In this document: positions 557-19,828 of the stretch, in pieces | Numbering within the stretch: position 1 is the first letter of the stretch | Layout: each line of letters starts with the position of its first letter | Source of the DNA: a virus | Strand: one strand, 5' to 3' | Length of the DNA: 27,055 nt | Virus record (IMG/VR): IMGVR_UViG_3300047276_000510 | Coordinates: 1 to 27,055 of that record | Translations under genes and position numbers: made by a program | Notes under the pieces: generated by a model | What the model saw: only the letters and a program-made list of their open reading frames with translations | What the model was told of the DNA's origin: nothing | The model's database searches: none

Positions 557-1423
557 TTACTTGTAAGAGATTTGAGCAGGTGTAGTGATAAATTGGGAAA
601 CTAGATGCACATCAGACTTGTTATCAAGGATGTGTCTCACCTTCATGTCTTTAGCTCTTAGAGGTTCCTTTTTGAAGGATCTCTTGCCATAGTCCATATT
701 AGCTTGGTTCACCACCTTATCCAAAGATAATGATTCACAAGTGGTTAGGAATAGTGGCAGTGACTTACTTTTTACCAGTGACCAGAAGGTGTTATACTGG
801 TAGAAGTTATCACTCTTTGTATATGTAATTGTCTTACTCTCAGTGTTATATAAAGGATATTTCAAATACTCCTTCAGGTTGTTAATAGGTTTAGGTACCA
901 GTTCTAGAATACCAGTGGACTGTTGACCATTGTAAAGGACTGCCTTATTAAACCATTCATTATCCACCTCAATCCTGTCATTATCATTAAACACTCCATA
1001 CCCATTGTTGAAATATTTATACACCTTTGTGTAATCCTTAACACTCTGAAGAATCTCATCGTAGTAAGAATATGCAAAAGGATATTCAATAATGTAAGGC
1101 TCTATGTTTCCATAGAACTTGTTGTAGTTCTCAACATCTGTCAAATGTCTCCACACACAGGAGCTATAAGAAGGAGTGAATATAGCTGTTACCTGTTGAT
1201 TAGGAGTGACAGTAGATATAGGGAAGTTGATAGTCTTTTTGCACTTTCCTAAGGACTCAATAATAATCACTGATGCAGCATCGTCTACAGAATAGCTAAT
1301 GCCATTAATTAACGCACTCAAAGGCACGTTGGTTCCTAAAACATTTCCAAGGTTGTCAGAGATGTTGAAAGGACCACTCCTAGGAGAGGCTTTGGTGATC
1401 TTTATGAATACTGTCTGTGCCAT
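557..1423 (-). CDS. Muzzle-partner structural protein with N-terminal GPFN beta-domain
   Basis: This 288-residue protein has no signal peptide or membrane segment. Residues 4-70 form a compact beta-rich domain with landmarks GPFN (17-20), an L-x-x-G turn near 38-41, and an ESLGKC strand ending in a FPI segment. The same pattern is present in the 84-codon frame at 10249-10503. After residue 85 comes a Tyr/Asn-rich segment (SSCVWRHLTD, then many Y-rich strands) and a basic C-terminal part. It begins 11 bases after the stop of the 1730-codon muzzle-like gene, and its own stop is one base before the next ATG, so it belongs to the same tail operon. The Tyr-rich part has no family I can name. Its position suggests a component of the tail tip or muzzle, which is inference. 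Confidence 0.72.
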   Translation of the reverse strand: MAQTVFIKITKASPRSGPFNISDNLGNVLGTNVPLSALINGISYSVDDAASVIIIESLGKCKKTINFPISTVTPNQQVTAIFTPSYSSCVWRHLTDVENYNKFYGNIEPYIIEYPFAYSYYDEILQSVKDYTKVYKYFNNGYGVFNDNDRIEVDNEWFNKAVLYNGQQSTGILELVPKPINNLKEYLKYPLYNTESKTITYTKSDNFYQYNTFWSLVKSKSLPLFLTTCESLSLDKVVNQANMDYGKRSFKKEPLRAKDMKVRHILDNKSDVHLVSQFITTPAQISYK

Positions 1424-1434
1424 TCAAATAATGT

Positions 1435-4400
1435 TTATAAAGGGGCAGTAGTAGTTGTTGTAGTGGTTCCACAAGTGTTTCCACAATATGTTCCCTTTGT
1501 AATATTCGCAGCTCCACCAAATATCACTATACTGTTCTCCACTACACAAGGAATCACATAAGGAGTGGGGTCTGTAAGGGTTGCATTACCAGTAGTTTCA
1601 TCGCAGTTAAACCATTGAATCTGCACTACAGGATCTGCTACCACTGTATATTCATAACAATCATCACAGCTTGGAGCAATTGTTGTAGTAGTGGTGGTAG
1701 TGCTAGTGGATGTAGTGCTAGTTGTGCTTGTAGTGGTTGTACTGGTACTAGTAGTAGTGGTTGTAGTTATCTCACAAGCCTCTCCCACTAAGGTACAATC
1801 AGGTACAAAGTAGGTGGTAGTTGTTGTTGTGGTGCTACATCCAGATCCAATTAGTGTTACAAACAATCCTTTAGCTGCAGCTTGAATATCATCTCCACAT
1901 ACACACACATATTGTGTAGTTCCACCTGCTATCAGAACGTTAAACTGTGGAACACCATTGCAATCTGTGTAGTCGTATGTTAATGTGTCAGAAGATTGAT
2001 TCTCAACTGAATATGTATTACACTCACACACAAATGCTGTTGTTGTAGTGGTGGTAGTGTTAGGAACGGGATTTGCTACAATAGCCTCAAAGTCTGCACA
2101 GCAATCATTCAGTCCAGAATAGAAGAAGTTGTTCTCAGCTATGTACCAGTTAGGAATGTAGCTATGGAAACTCACCCAGCTCTTTGTGTTCACATTGAAA
2201 GACAAAGTCCAGCTCTTGTTGCAGAAGTATTCAGTATCAGTTAAATATACCTGCTTTCTAATAGTTCCTGTACTATCACAGCAATCAACCTCTTCCTCTA
2301 GATAGAAGTTGAAGTCTGTCTCATCGTACACAATGTTCTTGTGTTTTGGAATATAGTCAAGCTTAGTAATGATGATACGGTCAAACTTACTATCATATAC
2401 ACCATGCAGTCCAAGTCCCTTGAAATGATTATCGATAGGAACATTAGGGAAGTAACGCAAGATTTCAAATGCTAGGTGATCTGTAAAGAACCTGTTCATT
2501 CCAGATCCAAAAGCACTCAAGTCTTGAGCTCCGCTACCTGTAATAAGGAATATTTGTCCACGCTTAGCATCCACACTCACCTGCCCCTGAGGTATCTTAA
2601 GAAGCATTTTGTTCTGAGTTCCTACATATCCTAGATCAGTTTCTGCAAAGTCTACAGGAGGTGAGCTTCTAAATAAGCTATCGTTACCCATATAAGCAGC
2701 CTTAGGATTGCTCGTATCAATTGTAAGAAGCGTGTTATATAACAAGCTCTTGTTCTCAAAACGAGCAAGGATAGCTTTGTTCTGTATACCATCTAAGCTT
2801 ACCAAAGGACCATAGTTCTGTGGGAAGTCAAAATAAGATATAGCTCTGTATATCAACCAGTTATTTCCTCTTGTATCAGCATTTGCATCTTGAGCATCTG
2901 AGTAGATGGCTCTAAAGGGATACACTGTAAAGCACTCTTTCTTCCAGTCGTAAGGAAGGTGAGTGAATGTGTTCTCTCTATTTTGCTTTGAGAAGGTGGT
3001 GTTGTAGTAGTATGTATTGTCGTTTGCAATAGATACATAATCCTCCTGCACCCAGTCATCAGGAATACCTGTGCTAACATGAGGCCAGAAGTCTCCAGCT
3101 CTGTTATCAAATGCCTGACGAAGATCTACATTATAAGAACTCTCACAATAGAAATATGGAATTCCATAAGCAAACAGATACATTTTACCATCATAGTAAG
3201 TTCTACCAGCTGCAGTTTGAGGAGTTTGACTGTTAGGACAATCTAAATTAGTAGCCTTTATAGATATAAAGTTTCTCAACACTGCTGTAGATACACTTGT
3301 ATCTGTAACAATAGAACGAGCTGAATGCCAGTATTGTGGATAGGCTACATTACCAATCTCATCGTAGAAAATGTCACTATCATCAGGAGCATTTACACGA
3401 TTGTCTATGAAGAATGGAAGTTTGGTTTTAAATGCAAACTTGCTAATAAATGTATCACCTCCAAAGAATGTAGCAATTACAGGAGTGGTTACAGGAGTGA
3501 GATCTCTTTGAAACCCTGTATCTACAGTGTCATAAGAGTACATTTGTCCATACTGATTTGGAGCAATGTTCTTAATTGATCCATAGTAAGAGACAACACT
3601 TATATAATCTTCTCTATTAGGAGCATCACATTTATTAGCTCCTGAAAGAGTCATTCTTGAGTTATCTGTTACTAGTCCACTAATGCTTGCTGTATCACTT
3701 GGGAATGGTAAAGGATCTTTTGCTTCATCTGTCTTTAGATAAACAGAACTCTCTCTGTTCCAGTTGTTTACATTCTCATCATCACCTACTCCCTGTACAC
3801 CAGGAATTAAATAAAGCTTGATATCAAGCTCGCGTTGTTTAATTCCAAGTCCATTATCAATTACATTACTGTAGTCGTAACTAGCTATAGAATTGTAAGA
3901 CCAGGCAAAGTTTTGTCTAGTGATACCGTTGATGTAAATAGTAAGATAGGCTTGATAAGCAGCAAACAGAGCAGAAGGGTTATATGGAGACGTGATATTA
4001 GCAACCTGATTAGCACTAGCTAAAGCATCCTCTTGAGCCTGAAGACTCACAAGTCTGTACATAGCGTTCTTCTTCACCTGTACAAAGTGAGCACTACCAG
4101 CACCAAAGATTACATTCTCTAGCTTTAGAATGTTTCCTAAAAAGGGCTGACCAAACGAAGTTTCAGGAGAATTGAATACATGTCTATACTTAGATCCTTC
4201 TTCATCAAACCCGTTGAGATTATCAGGATTACAGTATTCATATCCTACTTGTTGAGTTAACTCAATTTGATAGTTTGCACTACCATAATCGTAGGTAGGA
4301 GATGTCAGAGCAACAAGGTATCTACTAGTTCCACTAGTTAATGTGAATGTTGTTTCTTCAAGAGCTTTTTGAGGACTGTTGCAACAACCATTTGTAGGGT

Positions 4401-8090: not shown

Positions 8091-8819
8091 TTATCTCAAG
8101 TTTGGAGCGTTTGGTGCTTGACCATCAACTCCATCACTTGTGATGTCTGTCTTCAATTTGAAATACGTAGAGAGAAGCTTTTGAGAAGTGAGCTCTAACA
8201 CTTGCTTTTCCAGATATCCTGGAACTGGTGATTCCTTATCTAAAGGATTCATGCAGAGTTGTTCTGTGGTGTACTCAGGAGTTCCACATCCACATTCGGG
8301 ATACATAATCTCATTTGGAACATCTTCCTCAAAGAGAGCAACTAGTCTGATTGCTTTCAGTAGGGGATTGTTCACATAGAGATATCCATTAGAAATCCAG
8401 TAGTATTCTTCCTTCTTGATAATAGGAAGCTTGAGCAAGTTTACGTATCGGTTGATGGTTATTTCCTTAAGTTTCTTTCCCTGTCCACTCATAGCATTAA
8501 TAGAATACACCCCTTGAATTACATACTGATAATTACCTTCTGTAATTCTGGGAAGTTTAAATTTTGTTCTAGCTACAGTGCAAGGATCTGCGTAATCACA
8601 GCATTCAGAAATAGGAACTTCCACCATCTCTAAACAAGGGATGGTGGTAAAAACTGTATCGGTTGCCCATAACTTCCTCAGATTAGTCTCACGCTTTATC
8701 AGGAGGAAGGCATTGTTCCTAATCTCAGACATGACAGCTCTATCCGTGATCAAGTTGTCCGTGGAGAGCAACTTGTGCATAGAGCGTACATCTGAAACTA
8801 GCTTCCTAAAAGTTGACAT
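8091..8819 (-). CDS. Tail/neck ring-like structural protein
   Basis: This 242-residue protein begins with a long helix (residues 1-48, containing RKLVSDVRSMHKLLS), followed by beta-strands and a Cys-containing middle (CLEMVEVPISECCDYADPC near 62-80). A C-terminal helix (VPGYLEKQVLELTSQKLLST) ends in a flexible Asp/Pro/Asn tail. This helix-sandwich-helix organisation resembles phage adaptor or ring proteins, and the position between the phosphoesterase and the HU-like/ring genes supports a role in the head-to-tail connection. The start overlaps the stop of the phosphoesterase gene by one base (TAATG), which suggests translational coupling. No enzyme motif is present. The general structural call is fairly secure and the precise ring position is inference. 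Confidence 0.58.
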   Translation of the reverse strand: MSTFRKLVSDVRSMHKLLSTDNLITDRAVMSEIRNNAFLLIKRETNLRKLWATDTVFTTIPCLEMVEVPISECCDYADPCTVARTKFKLPRITEGNYQYVIQGVYSINAMSGQGKKLKEITINRYVNLLKLPIIKKEEYYWISNGYLYVNNPLLKAIRLVALFEEDVPNEIMYPECGCGTPEYTTEQLCMNPLDKESPVPGYLEKQVLELTSQKLLSTYFKLKTDITSDGVDGQAPNAPNLR

Positions 8820-10069
8820 TATAAATACTGTTTGAATATATTTGTTATTCCGTCTTCAAAATCTATCAGGAAACCTGTCACCTCACCTTTAGTAATAGTG
8901 TAACCATTCTTATCATCCCAAGAACTCTTGGCTGTAGAGAAGGCAGGGAGCTGGTAGAACTTAATACCGTTGAAATCCAGACTCACCTCATGGTGCTTGT
9001 CTCCTGTAAATATGTAAAAATTCTCATGACTTGACCACTCATCTTTAAACTCCATAGGGAACAAACCAGCAAGTTTTGCAGGCTTCAAAGCATCCCCATG
9101 GTTGAACATCAGTGCGGATGCACCATAGCTGACATACTTCCTATATCTTGGAGAGATGTCAAAGAACACACGCTCCTCGTTTCTAAAGTAGGTTTTTAAC
9201 CAGCTAGCTAAGTGCCAGCCTACAAACTCATCGTGATTACCAGCTACAAAAATTACATCAACCTGTCCACCCTTCTGAAGGAGAAGATTAATGACGCTCA
9301 CCTCATGATCACAGATTGCTTGGAAAGCCTCGTGGTAGGAGAGAATATTTTGCTGGGGAGTACCCTTTGTAGTTGTGTTAGTGAACTCACTATTGAACTC
9401 ATCAGAACCAATAATATAGTTGATATCTGTGAGATTATTAGCTAAAGAGGCTTGATTTAAAATGATTTCCACTCTTTGGATAAAATCACCAAAGCGCTCT
9501 TCTATATCATTGTTTCCTCCAATGTCTAGTTTGTTTAGGTGGGAGTCCTGTTTGTTTATAACTAAACAGGCATCCTTCTTAGCTCTGTCAAACTTTGGAG
9601 CCACTATCTCAGGGGAGCAAGGTTCATAATTCTCAAGGAAAGCAACAAAGCTGTCTTGGAATACCTGCTCATCTTTTTTCTTACCTAACCATGCTTTCAC
9701 TTGGTAGTGAGGCTGGTCAGCATTTCCCCAGTAGTTTTGGACGTATTTAGTTATCTCCCACTTGTCCGTATCTATCTTACATTTCTCAATCAACTCGTCC
9801 AAACTCTTGATTTCTTCCTTAGAGTTGAACACCACTTCACCTGTTCCCTTCTGAATGTCTTCAACAAATCTTACGATTTGATCTTCTAGTTCTCCAATGT
9901 AATTTGCAATTTCTGCAGTTTCTTCAGCCAATTCTGAGCCTCGCAGCTCTCTCATCAATTCATCCACCTCATTTTCTGTAATGTTGAGTTTCTCTGCATA
10001 GAACTTTTTGCTCTTTTTCCAGTGAAGCATCTGCTCCAGCTGTTGCAGAAGGGATTGATTTTCAGGCAT
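8819..10069 (-). CDS. Calcineurin-like metallophosphoesterase
   Basis: This 416-residue protein carries the full set of metallophosphoesterase motifs in order: D175-x-H177 (KQDSHLNK), GSDEF at 221-225, GNHDE at 277-281, HGD at 324-326 and GDKHHE at 356-361. These provide the two-metal site that hydrolyses phosphomono- or diesters. The N-terminal 170 residues are helical. Residues 17-45 (KKSKKFYAEKLNITENEVDELMRELR) look like a helix-turn-helix of the resolvase/sigma-region-4 type, so the enzyme may dock on DNA. It is the first gene after a strong terminator and has its own promoter, so it leads the tail transcript. The substrate is unknown: DNA, a nucleotide or a protein phosphate are all possible. 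Confidence 0.85.
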   Translation of the reverse strand: MPENQSLLQQLEQMLHWKKSKKFYAEKLNITENEVDELMRELRGSELAEETAEIANYIGELEDQIVRFVEDIQKGTGEVVFNSKEEIKSLDELIEKCKIDTDKWEITKYVQNYWGNADQPHYQVKAWLGKKKDEQVFQDSFVAFLENYEPCSPEIVAPKFDRAKKDACLVINKQDSHLNKLDIGGNNDIEERFGDFIQRVEIILNQASLANNLTDINYIIGSDEFNSEFTNTTTKGTPQQNILSYHEAFQAICDHEVSVINLLLQKGGQVDVIFVAGNHDEFVGWHLASWLKTYFRNEERVFFDISPRYRKYVSYGASALMFNHGDALKPAKLAGLFPMEFKDEWSSHENFYIFTGDKHHEVSLDFNGIKFYQLPAFSTAKSSWDDKNGYTITKGEVTGFLIDFEDGITNIFKQYL

Positions 10070-10248: not shown

Positions 10249-10503
10249 TTAAATTACTGTGGTTGTTGTGGTTGTAGTGCACTGCACAATAGGAATGTCA
10301 ACATAGTTTGAACAAAGTGGATTACTTGATGCCACTCTGACAACTGTTGTTCCATTAGGAACTAATGCACTAGTGTATCCAGCCAAGAGAGCCACCTTGC
10401 TCACTCCTGTTTCAAATGCTGATATATACCCATCTAGATCTGAATACAGGTTAAAAGGTCCTGTATCAGATCCAGCTGTTGTTAAAGTTATTGTTACTAT
10501 CAC
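10249..10503 (-). CDS. Small GPFN beta-domain protein with poly-Thr tail, GTG start
   Basis: This 84-codon frame opens with GTG at 10503. It encodes one beta-domain that aligns by eye with the N-terminus of the protein at 557-1423: GPFN at 15-18, an L-x-x-G-Y turn at 40-43, a VVRVASS strand, a Cys, then a V-D-I-P-I strand. It ends C75, seven Thr, Val-Ile. The frame is the same as that of the upstream 177-residue gene and is separated from it only by tandem TAA TAA and one Asn codon. It could be a separately started protein through GTG and coupling, or a readthrough extension, or a module cut off by stop codons. The leader is A-rich (TAATAAAACGTG) and resembles other starts here. No Shine-Dalgarno sequence is visible. 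The terminator at 10173-10210 follows. Confidence 0.62.
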   Translation of the reverse strand: MIVTITLTTAGSDTGPFNLYSDLDGYISAFETGVSKVALLAGYTSALVPNGTTVVRVASSNPLCSNYVDIPIVQCTTTTTTTVI

Positions 10504-10509
10504 GTTTTA

Positions 10510-11043
10510 TTAGACGGTTGTGGTTGTTGTAGTTGTTGCAGGACAATCTCCCAAATCAACGAGCGTTACACCTGGAACTGGAGGAACTACTACAGAATCC
10601 TCACAAGCACAAATGTATATAGTGGTTGGTCCAACAACATTAGCATTTACAAGAATTCCTCCACACTGATAGTATGCAACTTCTATTTCAGAAACTGTTG
10701 AATTTGTTACTGAGTAAAACTTACAAGAAGGACAAGCTATTGTAGTTGTTGTAGTGGTTGTTGGAGGATTAGTAGTAGTAGTGGTAGTTGTTGTTAAACT
10801 ATTCACTAAAGTTTGAAGACTTAGAATCTGATCTTTCAAATCACAAATCTCATTATCTACTTTCTCAAAAGCAACAGTACCTGTATCACAAGTATTAATT
10901 CCTGTACAAGGAAGATTTGGTCCACTATAAGAGATATAATCAGTAGGAACAAGTTGCACTGTACAAGGATCACCCCCTGGACAAGGAACTGTGTTTATCA
11001 ATGGATTCGTTGTGCAGCAAGGGTTTTGTGGAAGGAATATCAT
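10510..11043 (-). CDS. Fibre-like protein with docking motif, Thr linkers and Cys module
   Basis: This 177-residue protein has a mosaic build. A Cys/Pro-rich N-terminus (1-30) is followed by residues 36-66 (YISYSGPNLPCTGINTCDTG, then a short helix), which match residues 18-48 of the collar fibre at 11065-12195. A short coiled coil (66-83) leads to poly-Thr runs at 84-91 and 95-101 separated by Asn-Pro-Pro. A Cys-rich module at 104-167 (CPSC, a YSV strand, YYQCGG, a YICAC strand, a final C) matches the module at 1534-1597 of the muzzle-like protein. The protein ends in seven Thr and a Val. The architecture suggests a small trimeric fibre or decoration whose N-terminus docks to the virion and whose C-terminus exposes the Cys module. 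It lies between the collar fibre and the in-frame GPFN domain. Confidence 0.75.
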   Translation of the reverse strand: MIFLPQNPCCTTNPLINTVPCPGGDPCTVQLVPTDYISYSGPNLPCTGINTCDTGTVAFEKVDNEICDLKDQILSLQTLVNSLTTTTTTTTNPPTTTTTTTIACPSCKFYSVTNSTVSEIEVAYYQCGGILVNANVVGPTTIYICACEDSVVVPPVPGVTLVDLGDCPATTTTTTTV

Positions 11044-11064: not shown

Positions 11065-12195
11065 TTAAGGAATATACATAATATAATAGCAAGCACGAAC
11101 AGGAGGAATGTTATTGTGAGACTGTCCACCTCCTGCAGAAGCGTTGGTGATAGATACACTAATTCCTGTGCTGTCAGAGCTAGTAAGACCTACAGTTGCT
11201 GTTGTTCCAGAGCTATTTACCAAAGCATAACTTGAGTTACCACCTGCACCATATTGATCAGCAATACAGTGAGTAGAGTCAATTAAATCTCCAGTAGAGT
11301 TAGGATTAGCAATAAAGTGACTATGTTCAGGATCTACAATACTTACAGTGTTGACGTGAGTGTGAGCAGGAATTTGTGTAGTAACTAATGTTACAGCATT
11401 CTCACCAGCAAGTGTGTTGAGAGCATAGTTGGGATTGGAAGGACTTACAAAAGGATCTACCACAGGGCTCAGAGCTCCACCAGGAACACCCTGAATAGCA
11501 CCTACAGCAATTCTTCCGCGCTTGTCAGGAGTACCGTTATTTCCATTACACAGATAGATTTTGTCAAATCCATTAGCTGAAAGACCTGCACCTGTACTAT
11601 CAAAGTTAGCTAAAGATCCATAGTATTCAACCACTGTATAAGGAACCATTCTGTCCTTATATTGTGTAACACCAGGAGTTGGTGTACAAGCTGCTACAAG
11701 AGCACAGAGCTCTGATTTTTTTACATAGTTGGTTTCAACATCTAACACAAATGCTTCAAAATCAACAATATGTGCACAGAGTTCAGTGATTACTGCCTGA
11801 AGAATATCGTGTGTTCCTGAGGAAGAAGTTACACCTGTAAGACAACCTACAGTGTAAGGTCCTTCCAAAGCAGCAAAGTCTTCCTCTAGAGCAGTAAGTC
11901 TTTCGTCTAGTTCACACACAGCTTTGATCAATGCATTAATAACATTGGGGAGTGTAAGATCTTCACAAGCCACTAAGTTCTTGTTTACAATCTCACAAAT
12001 AATTTGAGGATTGATATCTAATTTTATACCAGTCCCATTAAGAGTAGAGGTGAGAAACTCAATAAGTGCTTGTTCAATATATGATAAAGAGTCACCTGTT
12101 TTAATACCTAACACAGGGACATCTATACCAGTATATCGTATACACTGATCTGATACAGTTTCCACGCAACCATTATAGCAATTTGAGCAAGACAT
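11065..12195 (-). CDS. Collar-domain fibre protein (phage tail-collar / MdpB-type C-terminus)
   Basis: This 376-residue protein has an N-terminal Cys cluster (SCSNCYNGC) and then a putative docking segment (18-48, IRYTGIDVPVLGIKTGDSLS) shared with the protein at 10510-11043. A helical stalk follows (about 60-165, with DERLTALEEDFAALEG). The C-terminal half is a typical phage collar domain: LCNGNNGTPDKRGRIAVGA (215-233), QIPAHTHV (274-281), a second H-S-H, a GGGQSHNNIPP motif (355-365) and a final YYIMYIP. Such domains are found in tail fibres and in microcystin-dependent-type proteins and act in receptor contact or fibre tips. In crAss-like virions, fibres encoded near the capsid genes can be head fibres, so head or tail placement is open. 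Its ATG follows the TAG of the previous gene with no spacer. Confidence 0.85.
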   Translation of the reverse strand: MSCSNCYNGCVETVSDQCIRYTGIDVPVLGIKTGDSLSYIEQALIEFLTSTLNGTGIKLDINPQIICEIVNKNLVACEDLTLPNVINALIKAVCELDERLTALEEDFAALEGPYTVGCLTGVTSSSGTHDILQAVITELCAHIVDFEAFVLDVETNYVKKSELCALVAACTPTPGVTQYKDRMVPYTVVEYYGSLANFDSTGAGLSANGFDKIYLCNGNNGTPDKRGRIAVGAIQGVPGGALSPVVDPFVSPSNPNYALNTLAGENAVTLVTTQIPAHTHVNTVSIVDPEHSHFIANPNSTGDLIDSTHCIADQYGAGGNSSYALVNSSGTTATVGLTSSDSTGISVSITNASAGGGQSHNNIPPVRACYYIMYIP

Positions 12196-13226: not shown

Positions 13227-14399
13227 TTACGGGATCAAAGTTGATGTAGTAGTAGTAGAAGGCCATACAGTGGTTGTAGTAGATGTAGTTGTTACACATG
13301 CACCATTTACACTAGTCACTGTACCAAGTGCAGCCTCAAGAACAGCTTCGATAGCAGTCTCAGCAGCACTACCACTTTCAACAGCAATGATTACAGTGCT
13401 ATCTTCCTTGATGTAATCTCCCCACTGATAAGCAGACTTGTCATACTCATTGAACTTGATGTAGTAAGTGGTATAAGTTGTACCATCACTAACCCAGCTC
13501 TCAAAGTTTTCATTGTAACCATTCATTCTGTAGAGGTGCTTCAAGTAACCAGCTTGATAGCTGTAGAAGTTCTTCTCTAATTGTGCGATCTCTGCAGAAG
13601 TACCACTAGCGTAAGAAGAACGCTGTACTACAACAGGGTTAGCAACAATGTTACAAGCATCTGCTACGATGAAGTCAGCAGTTGTAGCTGGTCCACTGTA
13701 CACGAATGTACGGAACCACATACGGTCATACTCGTAAGGGAATGCAGCAACATCACAAGGCTGACCATATTTAGTAAGAGGCTTACCAGTGATACGCAAG
13801 AAAGCGTTTTGGTCGTTACCAATTCTCTGGAACTGATAGAAGTCAGAGAAAGTAATGTTGTCAGGGTTGTTTCCAGGAGCCTGAAGGTTGAAGTGATAAA
13901 TCAAATCATCGATCAAAGCAGGAATATCAACAATGTCACAAGGATCACCACCACAATCGCAGCAAGGAGCTTGAACTGTGATAGAACGAGTGAAACCGTT
14001 AAAATACAAGGTATCCAGGTAGCTAGAGTGAGCACGGAGAGTTACAGTTACAACCTCACCACACTTCACATTCCAGTTTCCAACATCAGTAATCTGAGTG
14101 AGAGGAGTAGGACATCCGTCCACTTTGTACCACTCAGTTACGTTGCTGTTACAACCAGAACCAGAAGGACAACCTTTAATCTTATCAGAACGCTTAGAGC
14201 CTTGCAGATAAGTGTTAGTACGGCCCTGCGCAATGTAAAAATAGGGGGCAGCAGCAATGTTCAAAGCTGTTGCAACAGCATAGTCATTTTTGTAGATACC
14301 TACTTGACCAGCTGTTAAGTCTTGCGTAGATCCAGAGCTAGGGAGCGCAGATTGCCCTACTGGCACTACGAAGAGCGTAGTTAATGAAAAATCAGCCAT
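13227..14399 (-). CDS. Capsid accessory / decoration-like protein with Thr-rich tail
   Basis: This 390-residue protein lacks signal peptide and membrane segments. It contains several Cys pairs (GCPSGSGC, VDGCPT, CCDCGGDPC at about 146-154) and a well-formed middle with aromatic strands. A conserved-looking segment (IDDLIYHFNLQAPG near 162-175) is followed by beta-rich parts. The final 23 residues are Thr/Ser-rich (CVTTTSTTTT, VWPSTTTTST), the same kind of tail as on the proteins at 10249-10503 and 10510-11043. It is preceded by a short A-rich leader (TAAAATAAAACAAAATGG) and followed by a hairpin terminator, as expected for an abundant virion protein. Similar position relative to the major capsid gene in crAss-like phages suggests an auxiliary capsid or other surface protein; this is inference. 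Confidence 0.65.
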   Translation of the reverse strand: MADFSLTTLFVVPVGQSALPSSGSTQDLTAGQVGIYKNDYAVATALNIAAAPYFYIAQGRTNTYLQGSKRSDKIKGCPSGSGCNSNVTEWYKVDGCPTPLTQITDVGNWNVKCGEVVTVTLRAHSSYLDTLYFNGFTRSITVQAPCCDCGGDPCDIVDIPALIDDLIYHFNLQAPGNNPDNITFSDFYQFQRIGNDQNAFLRITGKPLTKYGQPCDVAAFPYEYDRMWFRTFVYSGPATTADFIVADACNIVANPVVVQRSSYASGTSAEIAQLEKNFYSYQAGYLKHLYRMNGYNENFESWVSDGTTYTTYYIKFNEYDKSAYQWGDYIKEDSTVIIAVESGSAAETAIEAVLEAALGTVTSVNGACVTTTSTTTTVWPSTTTTSTLIP

Positions 14400-19297: not shown

Positions 19298-19828
19298 CTA
19301 ATCAAGTTTGTTTATCACTGTGTCATTTATGAGCCTAAAACTCTTGATTGGGGCTAGGTCAGTGAGGGTGACTTGTTGAATTTCAACGCCCCACTTCCTA
19401 GCCTCTACCCTTGCTTTCTTCGTAAGGGTATTATCAATCTCAGGGTCAATGCACTCATCTAGAGTTTTGTCCATGATAATATTCTTGATAATAGACTGGG
19501 TCATGTCAGATATAGCATCCTGAGCATCATACACTTCTAGAATGAAGGTTTGGATGTCAGCTATCCTATACTTAATCACTCCTTTCACCACAATGTTCTG
19601 CTTGTCTTTTGTATACAAGCTCTGTGGAGGAAGGCTCAACGTGGTTACCACTACGTGCTGTTCCATTGGATCATCCACAAATGGAATGCGCCAGTGGAAT
19701 CCAGGTTTAGCTACCCTATGGAATTTACCAAACCTTAGAACAACTGCTTCCTCATAATCCCTCACAATGAAGAAAGGAAGCAGTTGCTCAAACCAGTTTA
19801 CAATTAGGTCTATGAGCCTATCAAACAT
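19298..19828 (-). CDS. SPFH / Band-7 (stomatin-prohibitin-like) protein
   Basis: This 176-residue protein is a minimal Band-7 protein. Residues 5-22 (LIDLIVNWFEQLLPFFIV) form a hydrophobic/amphipathic stretch that could lie in or on a membrane. Family landmarks follow: VVLRFGKFHRVAKPGFHWRIP (29-49), LYTKDKQNIVVKGVIKYRI (71-89) and KWGVEIQQVTLTDLAPIKS (145-163). It stops at the end of the SPFH domain and lacks the C-terminal coiled coil that stomatins (about 250-300 residues) use to form rings. Its ATG overlaps the portal stop by one base (TAATG), so it is made with the terminase-portal unit. SPFH proteins organise membrane microdomains or chaperone membrane proteases. A role at the host membrane during assembly or lysis is inference. 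Confidence 0.9.
   Translation of the reverse strand: MFDRLIDLIVNWFEQLLPFFIVRDYEEAVVLRFGKFHRVAKPGFHWRIPFVDDPMEQHVVVTTLSLPPQSLYTKDKQNIVVKGVIKYRIADIQTFILEVYDAQDAISDMTQSIIKNIIMDKTLDECIDPEIDNTLTKKARVEARKWGVEIQQVTLTDLAPIKSFRLINDTVINKLD

Follow-up and report, generated by a model that had tools for sequence, protein, structure and literature searches.

What does a string of small cysteine-rich domains, joined by threonine tracts, do on the tail of a crass-like phage? The window, the whole 27-kb stretch of an IMG/VR virus record that was analysed, covers a structural-gene region of such a phage. Pfam and PHROG searches recognised a terminase and a major head protein (both by PHROGs), ring protein 1 (PF24228, E-value of 9 × 10−11) and a muzzle; the portal was assigned by position and size only. 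The protein carrying the cysteine-rich string, P0001 (1435..6627, minus strand, 1730 aa), had been described as muzzle-like in the initial annotation, and it is a crassvirus muzzle. It matches the Pfam model crAss_MUZ (PF25731) with an E-value of 1.3 × 10−35 and 123.3 bits against a curated cut-off of 27, a virion structural protein PHROG (2 × 10−107) and four reference muzzles in BLASTp searches. Its gene lies next to crassvirus ring, capsid and terminase genes. The muzzle is not a single polypeptide here, its C-terminal segment being encoded by a separate ORF (557..1423, minus strand). As the family model itself is matched, the split muzzle is a variation inside the PF25731 family. Elsewhere in the window, a protein flanked by the portal-size gene and the capsid genes (19298-19828) resembles SPFH/band-7 (stomatin) proteins by eye, and one in the tail gene cluster (8819-10069) contains a GNHDE motif that recalls metallophosphoesterases, also by eye.

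The last 207 residues of P0001 read Thr7, module A, Ser-Thr7, a short Cys motif, Thr-Ser29, module C, Thr7 and APL before the stop, so the four Thr or Thr/Ser tracts reported around the Cys pieces (window 2058-1447, minus strand) are all present. On the minus strand, tract 1 (residues 1524-1530) lies at 2038..2058, module A (1534-1597, profile A1) at 1837..2028 and Ser/Thr tract 2 (1598-1605) at 1813..1836. These are followed by the short motif CTLVGEACEI (1611-1620, with Cys1611 and Cys1618) at 1768..1797, Thr/Ser tract 3 (1621-1649) at 1681..1767, module C (1654-1719, profiles A1/A7) at 1471..1668 and Thr tract 4 (1721-1727) at 1447..1467. The fibre-like protein P0002 (10510..11043, minus strand) carries one module flanked by Thr tracts at residues 104-167 (10543..10734, minus strand).

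The resemblance between module A and residues 104-167 of P0002 was originally drawn by eye, and it withstands shuffling. Their Smith-Waterman score of 84 compares with 26 ± 5 for shuffled sequences, none of 2000 scoring as high, and shuffles with the cysteines held fixed likewise never reached 84 (0/2000). Module C scored 67 against the P0002 module (shuffles 28 ± 5.5, 0/2000). Compared directly, modules A and C show no detectable pairwise similarity (21, under the shuffled mean); what connects them is the wider family, together with the predicted fold. An initial set of 30 modules, in which four cysteines are invariant, came from the stretches that Thr tracts enclose in 21 related contigs. 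The profile built from them, whose scores for the 30 training modules are circular, matched further copies in relatives outside the training set, types D to G among them. The best listed chance match among 3250 shuffled Cys-bearing ORFs was 0.021. Across 76 distinct modules the core Cys columns are held in 76, 76, 76 and 75, bearing out the earlier proposal of one domain family.

The number of cysteines is even in 72 of these 76 modules, and 18 have exactly four spaced cysteines. Among modules with all four core cysteines, 44 have an extra N-terminal Cys, and every one of these has another extra Cys as well (44 against 0; Fisher test, 10−10, ignoring kinship; the modules come from related contigs, so the counts do not represent independent events). 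Paired disulphides would produce this pattern, and it is from these counts that we infer them. The 30 modules had no consistent significant match in Pfam or PHROG (no family was matched by more than one module; best E-value 0.031) and the Cys module had no significant PDB match by sequence (best 0.67). With modules A and C, P0002 and a fibre array from a related contig (L014) as queries, tBLASTn of 50,697 phage records with the low-complexity filter on returned nothing. A scan of 84,980 bacterial and archaeal genomes for module types C and A, which reaches close relatives only, gave pattern matches and no relative.

AlphaFold2 predicted module A, from the 30-row alignment, as a five-stranded domain (pLDDT 91.3, pTM 0.78), and module C, whose own alignment was built from type C copies alone, as an all-beta domain (pLDDT 93.5, pTM 0.78). 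The two independent models have eight of their highest-probability viral structure matches in common, all of them unnamed proteins. We are therefore confident that the predicted structures of A and C represent one fold, and not the unrelated folds that would have spoken against a common family. The best fold matches, with TM-scores of 0.66-0.86 by query length, were four proteins of uncultured Caudovirales phages (A0A6J5M7Y7, A0A6J5NSF4, A0A6J7WZY8 and A0A6J5MG40), which have 16-28% sequence identity to the modules and no named function. A Foldseek search of the PDB with module A gave no significant match, with a best E-value of 0.21 and TM-scores up to about 0.57 among the matches listed.

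Thr/Ser runs are the usual setting of the modules: 48 of 52 copies have one on the N side, and 49 have one on the C side or end there. The poly-Thr flanks noted initially are thus typical, but they are not required, since two modules lie in Gly-X-Y repeats and two in the muzzle of L019 without Thr on both sides. Threonine codons are used inside the runs (ACA 0.445, ACT 0.344, ACC 0.184) much as outside them (0.438, 0.374 and 0.136), and their order in the runs is mixed. Because this usage is ordinary and mixed, it is the amino acid that is maintained and not a DNA repeat. Considering that modules also occur on collagen-like Gly-X-Y spacers, poly-Thr seems to be one spacer type among several that can replace one another; as initially proposed, the Thr linkers may be rigid or glycosylated. 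The "shorter Cys piece" of the initial annotation proves to be a genuine motif that recurs, C-x-[LIF]-x-G-x-[AGVLI], with 94 copies in 49 of 55 distinct muzzle tails (shuffles: mean 2.6 copies, maximum 7). It is more widely spread across tails than any module type and is often found in tandem or at the extreme C-terminus; our guess is that it docks onto the muzzle.

Modules are found on both muzzle and fibre-like proteins, in agreement with the suggestion that the domain is mobile. Relatives of module C occur in the fibre arrays of L013, L014 and L120, and the L014 fibre module is 64% identical to module C of the window. The L014 and L013 fibre proteins each contain at least six beads per array, on Thr/Ser strings of up to 110 residues. 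One tree set of nine modules mixes muzzle and fibre copies (94/90, in a tree with few columns and many weak forks). In L030 (5504-11215; G001:C1 about 67500-73200), a 1903-residue collagen-like protein (PF01391, E-value of 7 × 10−224) consists nearly entirely of Gly-Thr-Ser repeats; its N-terminus resembles that of P0002, and mid-chain it carries two Cys modules that the profile detects at E-values of 10−5 and 5 × 10−6. A small protein of the window (10249..10503, minus strand) ends in CTTTTTTTVI, and the same gene bears a module in L003, L004 and L006. A PHROG_15060-like protein (13227..14399, minus strand) has a Thr/Ser tail end without a module. The fibre-like proteins at 10510-11043 and 11065-12195 and the L030 protein have the N-terminal pattern Y-x-G-...-G-I-x-T in common, possibly a common anchor. 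Weak module matches were also seen within the muzzle body of L019 (14602-19869), at residues 627-693 and 1448-1513, which suggests further insertion points.

How variable the array is among relatives was determined with a 54-residue query from upstream of it, which retrieved at least 536 IMG/VR muzzles. Of these we retained 80, and a total of 75 sequences, counting the window, were parsed. In these 75, the segment between the muzzle body and the next gene ranges from 36 to 654 residues while both flanks are conserved, the arrangement of a variable domain between conserved parts that is seen in receptor-binding proteins. The 55 distinct tails have 42 architectures, including -A-s-C- (the window), -A-s-B-C-, -s-B-C-, -s-B-, -A-ss-s and module-free forms, so modules are gained and lost among close relatives. 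L040, L041 and L043 are 93% identical to the window in the muzzle body and 90-93% in the next gene, with tails of 40-44% identity; for L105, body and tail are 74% and 7% identical. The modules are dispensable, as L092, L060 and L108 have none. At the same site, L093/L097 and L067/L078 carry an Lcl_C-like domain (PF07603) in place of Cys modules, with E-values of 3.9 × 10−8 and 1.5 × 10−7, just under the curated cut-off; neither P0001 nor its modules contain Lcl_C, which was found in relatives only. Some relatives have further unnamed domains of 90-250 residues there. In L064, L081, L087, L099, L117 and others, a recurrent unnamed domain of about 110-120 residues that starts with CQRP and ends shortly past DGWYF stands beside the short Cys motif. 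The homology breakpoints between tail pairs are too long and gapped to pin any exchange to the Thr tracts. None of five related records contained a reverse transcriptase, with positive controls, although the records may be incomplete; retroelement diversification was rejected for these five.

The array had been placed at the C-terminus of the muzzle. It does stand at the end of P0001, but this end is the insertion point of a split gene and not simply the end of the fold. Leptolyngbya phage Lbo-JY46, Flavobacterium phage FpV4, Cellulophaga phage phi17:2 and csAssE-Sib each have a single-chain muzzle, and the BLASTp homology of P0001 to these four stops near residue 1508. The ORF at 557..1423 (minus strand) continues the muzzle after an 87-residue N-terminal domain, its residues 88-288 being the split-off C-terminal segment (PHROG_15100 positions 1588-1779). 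In Lbo-JY46, FpV4 and phi17:2, a gap of 2-5 residues separates the P0001 match from that of the following ORF (residues 88/90 onward), and in csAssE-Sib the two matches overlap slightly. At this point the window has about 222 array residues, a stop and a start, and then the 87 residues that open the next ORF. Nearly all relatives likewise have a stretch of about this length ahead of the conserved segment. The following gene is a separate ORF in all 62 relatives where it was found, mostly 1-20 bases past the stop. In 15 relatives, the muzzle C-terminal segment begins about 630-680 bases after the tail stop; in L066, L070, L071, L073, L075, L079 and L096, this gap leaves room for an extra gene.

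A profile of the four reference muzzles had no match in the PDB, so the split point could be placed on phicrAss001 gp44 by a weak profile match alone (HMMER E-value of 7.9 × 10−8 in a one-sequence search, hhalign probability 40%). This match puts it in a hairpin at about residues 1225-1235. Tentatively, the muzzle gene is split at a beta-hairpin turn of the tail-tip propeller, and the array may emerge from the propeller flank instead of the tip.

The initial annotation thus holds in part: the muzzle, the single family and fold and the mobility stand, whereas the need for poly-Thr and the plain muzzle end do not. We consider the region to be an interchangeable, putative surface-binding display cassette on the crassvirus muzzle, with a probability of about 0.6. 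Three observations favour this reading: a swappable array between conserved flanks, exchange with fibres, and relatives in which an adhesin-type domain occupies this site. The split of the muzzle gene at one point leaves a free C-terminus, with the next gene supplying the rest of the muzzle. Small beta modules, probably clamped by disulphides, the short Cys motif and other domains are strung on this free end with Thr/Ser spacers, and related modules stand on fibre-like proteins of the same phages. The muzzle is a hexameric tail-tip gate that likely contacts the cell (PMC10172136). In the proposed mechanism, six array copies per tail would be exposed at the surface, their disulphides forming once the particle has left the cytoplasm. 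The beads could then bind weakly and multivalently to a cell-surface glycan or protein, and swapping them would retune this binding. As a candidate function, bead variation probably lets the phages retune the surface they stick to. More tentatively, and with less than even odds, combinatorial bead exchange on a split tail tip and on fibres may set host range in a large group of environmental crass-like phages, replacing retroelement mutagenesis or acting beside it.

Other readings were weighed against a surface-binding cassette. The beads could instead bind particles, biofilm matrix or polymers in the water and so retain virions near their hosts, while other fibres recognise the host. The Lcl_C-like and collagen-like parts, being adhesin types rather than specific receptor binders, are in line with this, as are the relatives that do without modules. 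Yet the array sits on the part of the virion that must touch the cell (PMC10172136) and varies far more than the remaining muzzle does, and we regard this reading as unlikely. Somewhat less likely still is that the arrays are structural bristles or spacers without a ligand, in which cysteines cross-link neighbouring muzzle subunits or fibres and so strengthen the particle. The short Cys motif is present in most tails, and in the phicrAss001 virion hub and ring proteins owe stability to disulphides (PMC10172136), but cysteines are gained in pairs within modules, which points to internal bonds, and the array is widely exchanged for unrelated domains of 90-250 residues, unlike a fixed structural joint.

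Two further readings concern the modules and linkers themselves. CxC and CxxC pairs might indicate metal-binding, zinc-ribbon-like domains; against this, 18 of the 76 modules have just four spaced cysteines, extra cysteines are partnered and lie at differing places, and the one Zn_ribbon match was weak (0.069). Rejected on Cys pairing, this reading is very improbable. More improbable again is that the Thr runs arose by microsatellite slippage and the Cys patterns between them by chance. The number of tandem Thr units does vary (L003 and L006), but the runs mix ACA, ACC and ACT at genome frequency, and we rejected DNA slippage on this codon use, on the shuffle counts (0/2000) and on the fixed cysteines of 76 modules.

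A surface-binding cassette at this site would add to phage tips that are modular, which are already known in kind. In the literature consulted, mostly outside subscription journals, we found no description of the module family, the split muzzle or an array at the split, nor of polythreonine linkers or Cys modules in crass-like phages. The analysis brings out a domain family that has no name but a confidently predicted fold, and what seems to be a hotspot of surface change on the tail-opening protein of one of the commonest phage groups. With body and flanks constant and the array changing, the relatives form a natural series for testing bead content against host range in uncultured crass-like phages.

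Among known systems, phicrAss001 gp44 belongs to the same muzzle family as P0001 (PF25731) and varies in length by insertions in its crass and IG2 domains (PMC10172136). In contrast to the single chain of gp44, P0001 is split, and its bead array stands at a site outside the insertions named in that study. Lcl_C, the C-terminal domain of the Legionella collagen-like adhesin, is unrelated in sequence to the Cys modules; Lcl likewise couples a binding domain to a repetitive spacer, and its C-terminal domain binds sulphated glycosaminoglycans (PMC11162425). Collagen-like phage fibres (PF01391) have a repetitive spacer as the array does, Gly-X-Y where the window has poly-Thr, and the one in L030 bears two Cys modules. 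Diversity-generating retroelements have been reported in Zeta crass-like phages, and the retroelement targets of crass-like phages are also hypervariable tail proteins (PMC12386605). Unlike in those targets, the variation among relatives of the window consists of whole-module exchange, and considering that no reverse transcriptase was found in five relatives, swapping modules may be another way of reaching the same outcome.
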